In this document: positions 42,252 to 44,010 of the stretch, in pieces
Position numbering within the stretch: position 1 is the first letter of the stretch
Layout of the letters: each line of letters begins with the position of its first letter
Assembly (NCBI RefSeq): GCF_030651995.1
Contig: NZ_JAUSBN010000037.1
Span: 1 to 64,000 of the forward strand
Length of the DNA: 64,000 bases
DNA from: Reyranella sp.
GTDB lineage: Bacteria; Pseudomonadota; Alphaproteobacteria; Reyranellales; Reyranellaceae
Reading direction: 5' to 3'
The notes under the pieces: model-generated
The model's input: the letters and a program-made list of their open reading frames with translations, nothing else
Told to the model about the DNA's origin: nothing
Databases searched by the model: none
Program-made: the position numbers and the translations under genes

Positions 42252-43355
42252 ATGAGCCTGCACCCGATGCCGAACGTGCCGCGCGCCACGGCGCGGCGCA
42301 TCGGCCTGCTGGGCGGCTCGTTCAATCCCGCTCATGCCGGCCACCGGCATATCAGCCTGGAAGCGCTGAAGCGCCTCGGCCTCGACGAGGTGTGGTGGCT
42401 GGTGTCGCCACAGAATCCGCTGAAGAGCGGCGACGGCATGGAGCCGCTGCCCACGCGCGTGGCCCGTGCCCGCCAGGTCGCCCGCCATCCGCGCATCCGC
42501 GTCGGCGCGCCCGAGCTGCTGCTGGGCACGCGCTACACGCTCGACACGGTCCGGGCGCTGAAGCGCGTCTATCCTCATGCGAAGTTCGTCTGGCTGATGG
42601 GCGCCGACATCCTGCCCCAGCTCGTCGACTGGGCAGGCTGGCGCGACCTGTTCGCCGCCGTGCCGATCGCTGCCTTCGCCCGCCCCGGCTGGGGCTATAC
42701 GGCGCTGGCCGCCCCGGCGCCGCGCACCTTCGAGCGTTTCCGGCTGCAGGCCACCGAGGCGCGCCGGCTGGCCACTTGCGAGCCGCCGGCCTGGTGCTTT
42801 ATCCCGAGCAGGTTGGACAGCCATTCCGCGACGGCCATCCGCGCCGAGCGGCCCCGACGGACCAGATCGAAAGGAAAGACCATCCCCGACCAGACCCGCA
42901 CGCTTCCCGATCGAAGCAAAGACTCCGACGCGCTCCTCGAACTGGTGCGCCAGTCACTGGACGACAACAAGGCCGAGGGCATCGTCGTCATCGACCTCAA
43001 GGGCAAGTCGGCCTTCGCCGACTACATGGTGATCGCCTCCGGCCGCTCGACCCGCCAGGTCGTGGCCATCGCCGAGAACCTCGCCGACAAGCTCAAGCAG
43101 TCCGGCCGCGGCTACATTCCCGTCGAAGGCAAGCAGACCGGCGACTGGGTGCTGGTCGATGCCGGCGACGTGATCGTCCATGTCTTCCGCCCCGAAGCGC
43201 GCACTTTCTACGCGCTCGAGAAGATGTGGGCGCTCGAGGACGAGGCCGCCGCCAAGCCGGTCAAGAAGGCTGCCGTCAAGAAAGCCGTCGTCAAGAAGGC
43301 GGTCGTCAAGAAGGCGGCCGCCAAGCCCGCGGCCCGACGCAAGCGCGAGTCGTGA
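42252..43355 (+). CDS. nadD-rsfS: NadD-RsfS fusion: nicotinate-mononucleotide adenylyltransferase and ribosome silencing factor
   Basis: One uninterrupted 367-codon frame encodes two complete proteins. Residues about 15-200 are NadD (NaMN adenylyltransferase of NAD synthesis), with GGSFNPAHAGH (21-31) and SATAIR (192-197). Residues about 225-330 are RsfS, the factor binding L14 and blocking 70S assembly in starvation (GIVVIDLKGKSAFADYMVIA). A charged linker joins them, and a Lys/Ala tail (331-367) follows. The usual state is two adjacent genes. No ATG, GTG or TTG opens RsfS separately before its first helix; an ATC at 42882 has AAGGAAAG four bases upstream and could be a rare start. Lies between proA and rlmH, the normal place for both genes. 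Confidence 0.9.
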   Translation: MSLHPMPNVPRATARRIGLLGGSFNPAHAGHRHISLEALKRLGLDEVWWLVSPQNPLKSGDGMEPLPTRVARARQVARHPRIRVGAPELLLGTRYTLDTVRALKRVYPHAKFVWLMGADILPQLVDWAGWRDLFAAVPIAAFARPGWGYTALAAPAPRTFERFRLQATEARRLATCEPPAWCFIPSRLDSHSATAIRAERPRRTRSKGKTIPDQTRTLPDRSKDSDALLELVRQSLDDNKAEGIVVIDLKGKSAFADYMVIASGRSTRQVVAIAENLADKLKQSGRGYIPVEGKQTGDWVLVDAGDVIVHVFRPEARTFYALEKMWALEDEAAAKPVKKAAVKKAVVKKAVVKKAAAKPAARRKRES

Positions 43356-43406: not shown

Positions 43407-43519
43407 CCCTCACCCTGAGGAGCGGTCCGCAGGGCCGCGTCTCGAAGGGTGGGCACGAACATCACGCCTGTTTCCCATCCTTCGAGACGGCCGCTGAGCG
43501 GCCTCCTCGGGATGAGGGA
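43407..43519. repeat. palindromic intergenic repeat, copy A
   Basis: The spacer between the nadD-rsfS gene and rlmH holds an imperfect palindrome: CCCTCACCCTGAGGAGCGG at one end, CTTCGAGACGGCCGC near the other, closing with CCTCCTCGGGATGAGGG. The same pattern is at 63682-63792. Such repeats with CTTCGAGACG and CCTCA...TGAGG arms are frequent in alphaproteobacterial intergenic space. Confidence 0.7.
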
Positions 43520-43551: not shown

Positions 43552-44010
43552 TTGAAGATCACCATCGCCGCCATCGGCCGCGCCTCGCGTGGGCCGGAGC
43601 GGGACCTGTACGAACACTATGCCGGCCGCATCCGCTGGCCGCTCGTGCTGCGCGAACTCGAGGAGAAGCGGAAGCTGCCCGCGCCCCAGCTCATGCAGCG
43701 CGAAGGTGAACTGCTGCTCGACGCGGCACCGGCCGGAGCGACGCTGGTGATGCTCGACCGCCGGGGCAAGGTGCTGGACAGCGAGGGCTTCGCGGCCCGC
43801 CTGGCCGGCTGGCGCGACACGTCGGTCTCGGACGTGGCTTTCCTGATCGGCGGGGCCGACGGGCATACCGAGGCGATGCTGAAGAATGCCACGCTCATCC
43901 TGTCATTTGGCGCCATGACCTGGCCCCATCTGCTGGCCCGCGGGATGCTGGCCGAGCAGATCTACCGCGCCCAGCAACTCCTCGCCGGTCATCCCTACCA
44001 CCGGGCCTGA
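43552..44010 (+). CDS. rlmH: 23S rRNA pseudouridine-1915 N3-methyltransferase
   Basis: This 152-residue SPOUT methyltransferase methylates pseudouridine 1915 of 23S rRNA. It starts at a TTG (MKITIAAIGRASRGPERDLY) and contains VAFLIGGADGHTEAMLKNAT and LSFGAMTWPHLLARGMLAEQ, then QIYRAQQLLAGHPYHRA, the C-terminal knot. Length is normal. The palindromic repeat lies directly upstream. Confidence 0.95.
   Translation: MKITIAAIGRASRGPERDLYEHYAGRIRWPLVLRELEEKRKLPAPQLMQREGELLLDAAPAGATLVMLDRRGKVLDSEGFAARLAGWRDTSVSDVAFLIGGADGHTEAMLKNATLILSFGAMTWPHLLARGMLAEQIYRAQQLLAGHPYHRA

Follow-up and report, generated by a model that had tools for sequence, protein, structure and literature searches.

The nadD and rsfS genes of this Reyranella sp. 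are joined in a single reading frame that carries, between the two protein domains, a conserved Shine-Dalgarno (SD) sequence followed by an ATC codon. Judged from the sequence, this one gene probably gives two products, a 40.6 kDa NadD-RsfS protein and a free RsfS protein of 17 kDa that would start at AUC 42882, and we put the probability of this reading at roughly 0.74. The features concerned are listed here by their positions in the window, that is, the whole stretch of 64,000 nucleotides that was analysed.

42252..43355, + strand, fused nadD-rsfS open reading frame (367 aa, 40.6 kDa)
42306..42842, + strand, NadD domain (residues 19-197, GGSFNPAHAGH to SATAIR; Pfam PF01467, NCBIfam NF000843)
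42843..42944, + strand, interdomain linker with the internal start signal, stop-free in 62 fused loci
42870..42875, + strand, internal Shine-Dalgarno AAAGGA, 6 nt before ATC
42882..42884, + strand, candidate non-canonical rsfS start codon ATC, from conservation in fused loci and from unfused relatives
42882..43355, + strand, predicted free RsfS (157 aa, 17.2 kDa)
42945..43229, + strand, RsfS domain (residues 232-326; Pfam PF02410, TIGR00090)

One frame of 367 codons at 42252-43355(+) encodes NadD and RsfS, both complete, with no stop in between, and Pfam places CTP_transf_like at residues 19-197 and RsfS at residues 232-326 of it. The NadD half passes the curated cut-off of NCBIfam NF000843 (270.9 against 240 bits, residues 13-209) and the RsfS half that of TIGR00090 (120.3 against 56.9 bits). 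By these full-length profile matches the first half is NadD (nicotinate-nucleotide adenylyltransferase), with predicted enzyme activity, and the second is RsfS, for which uL14 binding and a block to subunit joining are predicted, also in the fused state. Two ATG codons, at 42252 and 42267, are candidate starts for nadD, and the second of them (residue 6) is almost unchanged across an alignment of 12 rows. AlphaFold, run on NadD-RsfS with a 12-row alignment, gave a mean pLDDT of 51.9 and was not used for any conclusion.

We searched 65 Reyranella genomes, of which 62 gave a match and 61 were readable over the junction; the four left out of the junction count comprised three without a match and one contig-end fragment, and one readable locus (L071) begins only inside NadD. 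NadD and RsfS share a single open frame in 61/61 of these loci and also in L072, from another genus of the same family, which together make up the 62 fused loci. The fused junction is likewise present in single-contig assemblies and in records named R. aquatilis, R. massiliensis and R. soli (30 of 80 named-record loci were inspected, and four gave no RsfS by motif). With both profiles above their cut-offs and the frame intact throughout these loci, the in-frame fusion put forward in the initial annotation is real and conserved. Comparison of related genomes for the state of the gene pair shows it to be fused in every readable Reyranella locus and separate in the g21 and g19 loci of the family.

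It can be seen that all 62 fused loci have an SD at working distance followed by a conserved ATC or ATT, which is the arrangement known from infC. The codon behind the internal SD is ATC in 56 loci and ATT in 6, and the SD with its spacing reads AAAGGA/6 nt in 60, AAAGGA/9 nt in one and AGAGGA/6 nt in one. At the SD site the Lys codon is AAA in 61/61 loci, compared with 231/1090 Lys codons in the same coding sequences, and the Gly codon is GGA in 62/62, compared with 107/1350 Gly codons (the site being included in both totals). The two SD codons have undergone one substitution on the tree, against many changes in the codon just ahead of the SD and in the first codon of the spacer; the start codon switched three times from ATC to ATT, with no change to ATG, GTG or TTG (in the alignment L022 is shifted by one codon). 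Measured from the first SATAIR codon, the sequence up to the SD comes in seven lengths, from 12 to 20 codons, and is always in phase. In 28/62 fused loci a GTG or ATG occurs after SATAIR and ahead of the internal start; the window has none in this interval, and its internal SD is of moderate strength (-5.6 kcal/mol). The 8-mer AAGGAAAG, which had been described as lying four bases before the ATC, in fact ends 3 nt before it.

Relatives in which the genes are separate indicate where this signal came from. In four g21 loci and four g19 loci nadD and rsfS are distinct, and their RsfS frames read AGGAGA-n6-ATT (g21) and GGAG-n6-ATT (g19). In L073 and L074 nadD has a TGA of its own, and from the TGA in the RsfS frame up to the domain no ATG, GTG or TTG occurs and the one start signal is AGGAGA-n6-ATT, so that a non-canonical rsfS start is unavoidable there. 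A TTG start is possible in the single g18 locus (L081), and the order outgroup (L075) has GAAGGA with ATC and, closer to the domain, a TTG. Since the unfused relatives already carry an SD with ATT or ATC, the AUH (AUA, AUU or AUC) start of rsfS most likely predates the fusion, the nadD stop having been lost later. The best reading of these sequences is that the rsfS start inside the fusion has not decayed, and represents the AUA/AUU/AUC codon behind an SD that is common in Alphaproteobacteria.

The 62 fused loci all preserve the internal SD and the ATC or ATT as nucleotide sequence, so production of free RsfS alongside the fusion is very probable. The ATC at 42882 had been offered as a rival to the fusion; as a start it holds up, given the SD with ATC or ATT in 62/62 loci, but not as a replacement for the fusion, and the evidence favours both products. 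There is no support for the further suggestion that the fusion couples NAD synthesis to ribosome silencing in fixed stoichiometry, since the conserved internal SD and ATC/ATT match the start of unfused rsfS. We propose that the nadD stop was lost in a shared ancestor of Reyranella and one related genus. Translation from the nadD start would then produce NadD-RsfS, the sole NadD possible from the fused frame, and the older rsfS start, retained in frame as AAAGGA, 6 nt and AUC or AUU, would allow separate initiation at AUC 42882 to give free RsfS. Free RsfS would be expected to increase when there is too little IF3 for the 30S subunits and to decrease when IF3 is in excess, and both NadD-RsfS and free RsfS would accumulate.

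An alternative, which we consider unlikely, is that RsfS exists solely as the C-terminal half of NadD-RsfS and that the SD and ATC inside the frame are vestiges of the former start. This would fit the frame being unbroken and stop-free in 61/61 Reyranella loci, and it would also fit the occurrence of fusions in three other families, one of which lacks an internal SD with a near-cognate codon. When 20 long-frame loci of the class were fetched, 6 proved to be fused, 13 had NadD in another frame and one was without the NadD motif. The in-frame NadD-RsfS fusions were in f70 (L393, L394), f103 (L395, L396) and f16 (L397, L398); we take them to be independent events because family membership differs and f70 and f16 also have unfused loci (L118, L183). 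Those of f70 have AGGAGA, then ATG and, two codons on, ATC, those of f16 have GGAG before ATC, and in L395 and L396 no internal SD with a near-cognate codon was found. A vestige should drift, however, yet in the fused loci of Reyranella and L072 Lys and Gly at the SD are encoded by AAA and GGA alone, contrary to codon bias, and the 6-nt spacing is kept in 61/62 loci while adjacent codons vary freely.

The converse alternative, that free RsfS is the only useful form and that read-through is tolerated, NadD working with a passenger tail, appears decidedly unlikely. The strong conservation of the internal start is what it would predict, long stop-free frames are common in the class, and the linker evolves fast, with a rough omega of 0.60 against 0.21 for NadD and 0.16 for RsfS. 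Parsimony over 9 aligned linker codons nevertheless counted 86 changes of amino acid, 74 synonymous ones and not a single stop, where 4.5 stops would be expected in the 62 loci if nonsense were tolerated like missense (Poisson P ~0.01, with 42/160 changes multi-nucleotide), and each of the seven linker lengths is in phase. The stop-free linker thus modestly favours upkeep of the fusion by selection.

That RsfS starts at the in-frame GTG 42945 is highly improbable: although this is the first ATG, GTG or TTG in frame past the NadD match, and a GTG stands there in 46/62 fused loci, no SD precedes it in the window, it coincides with residue 1 of the Pfam RsfS match, so that a start here would trim the domain right at its boundary, and the other 16/62 loci have GCC, GTC or GCG, GTG being the usual codon of this conserved Val. 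An assembly or sequencing error that conceals a nadD stop (a missing stop or a frameshift in the linker) would have the draft state of the assembly in its favour and is excluded for practical purposes, as 61 genomes have this junction, the single-contig assemblies and the three named species among them.

Returning to the reading in which free RsfS is initiated at a non-canonical codon, we surveyed rsfS starts across the class. PF02410 matched 273/289 genomes; DNA was read at 145 of the 273, these being the better-scoring hits, and removal of three from the same genus left 142 loci, counts of which treat species as independent, which they are not, no species tree being used. In a codon-blind test we located, ahead of the domain, the strongest SD of 5 nt or more and recorded the codons 3-9 nt behind it. 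Such an SD was present in 104/142 loci and absent from 38/142. Behind it, ATA, ATT, ATC or CTG occurred in the RsfS frame in 67/104 loci (four of them also with a canonical codon), as against 13/104 and 8/104 in the other two frames; among the remaining loci with an SD the RsfS frame had a canonical codon only in 10 and neither kind in 27. In the positive control, infC, near-cognate codons followed the SD in 18/25 loci with an SD (30 loci), and in the negative control, rlmH, in 2/10 (30 loci), a small number.

A second test compared in-frame with out-of-frame codons for an SD energy of at most -6 kcal/mol. Enrichment in frame was clear for ATA (30/63 in-frame, 11/110 out-of-frame; p 4e-8), ATC (34/98, 12/135; p 1e-6) and ATT (17/90, 4/88; p 0.003), and slight for TTG (10/73, 4/95; p 0.03). 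By this test GTG (12/72, 7/57; p 0.3), ATG (10/104, 16/82; p 0.98) and CTG (32/152, 18/103; p 0.3) were not enriched. CTG as an rsfS start, apparent in the codon-blind count and not significant by SD energy, is therefore doubtful; some CTG loci carry long SDs (L089, L096, L145).

Taken locus by locus, the 142 were judged to favour a near-cognate start in 83 cases and a canonical start in 13, with 22 ambiguous and 24 unresolved. In 26/142 the interval that begins at the upstream stop (or 45 codons back) and ends three codons before the domain contains no canonical codon, and 23 of these 26 have an SD with a near-cognate codon, namely 8 ATA, 7 ATC, 5 ATT and 3 CTG (the CTG of L147 being doubtful). 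Automatic SD scoring misassigns single loci (for example L119 and L143), and only totals with controls were used. Two of five further class loci beyond the 142 (L390, L391) have an ATG that lacks an SD. Outside the class, inspection by eye of rsfS at 18 loci gave ATG in 14, TTG in 2 and an unclear start in 2, and for E. coli rsfS a minor UUG start is reported in the accessible part of PMC10917681.

To our knowledge few bacterial genes start at AUU, AUC or AUA. The textbook case is infC, which encodes IF3, and by eye we found ATA, ATC or ATT at the SD in 27/28 class infC loci inspected (from the set L260-L289). The infC gene of the present genome (L269) reads GAGGAGAAGGAAGCC-ATA, with GAGGAG as SD; the codon-blind count scores it 'none', another SD-like stretch being closer. 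With ATA for infC and ATC for rsfS, both anti-association-factor genes of this organism have a non-canonical codon at the SD. According to the sections of PMC13009471 available to us, weak start codons are disfavoured by IF3, which is how infC comes to be autoregulated in E. coli; RsfS is described in the available part of PMC3400551 as binding L14 of the 50S subunit and blocking subunit joining. By analogy with infC, IF3 may keep rsfS initiation low, and the two anti-association factors, IF3 for the 30S and RsfS for the 50S subunit, may be tuned together. We regard it as quite possible, though short of probable, that in Alphaproteobacteria infC and rsfS are both held to AUA, AUU or AUC so that IF3 activity sets RsfS output, the codon being kept weak while its identity varies (lineages interchange ATA, ATT and ATC, and ATG is avoided). 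Reyranella would then be the extreme, with RsfS linked to an NAD enzyme at the nadD level and free RsfS at an IF3-gated level.

The likeness to the IF3-autoregulated infC lies in the AUH codon behind an SD; rsfS differs in that its product acts on the 50S side, its start is buried in another coding frame and its control by IF3 is putative. Internal in-frame starts that yield a shorter product are known, for example in infB, and such genes resemble what is proposed for nadD-rsfS, two products from one frame by internal initiation; here, unlike there, the shorter product would be a protein that was once separate, and its start codon is non-canonical. In E. coli, pcnB reportedly has an AUU start. 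S. aureus cvfC1 and ccpN are given AUU and AUA starts, respectively, in the accessible part of PMC13009471. These three share with rsfS a conserved weak start codon, which limits output in them and would do so in rsfS, and they are other genes; the term rsfS has no hits in the main text of PMC13009471. Compared with RsfS/YbeB/RsfA as presented in the accessible part of PMC3400551, the RsfS domain here is likewise complete, but it is fused to NadD and has a probable AUC start in front of it.

We found no report of an AUH start for rsfS or of a NadD-RsfS fusion in the open-access literature (titles and abstract openings, with subscription papers largely outside this scope), and neither is mentioned in the available parts of PMC10917681, PMC13009471, PMC3400551, PMC7549365 and PMC13414232. 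If the interpretation is right, rsfS would be a second gene with an AUU, AUC or AUA start across a class, and for another inhibitor of subunit joining, which would make the link between start-codon fidelity and ribosome silencing direct and testable. Gene callers restricted to ATG, GTG and TTG would be expected to misplace or lose the rsfS start, Reyranella being the extreme case in which it vanishes inside a fusion.

As for the surroundings of the gene, a conserved cluster of obg, proB, proA, nadD and rsfS is described for Negativicutes in the accessible part of PMC7549365, and the present locus resembles it in that nadD and rsfS adjoin, but here they form a single frame with no stop between. 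The open reading frame 5' of nadD-rsfS is read from its own sequence as putative proA. On the 3' side lies rlmH, with a PF02590 match at 43552 that opens with a TTG codon. The C-terminus of RsfS has a Lys/Ala-rich tail encoded by a 15-nt tandem repeat (window 43260-43334), and the GC-rich intergenic gap between rsfS and rlmH contains a 16-nt inverted repeat, 94% complementary with a 20-nt loop (window 43438-43489), which is perhaps a REP-like element.
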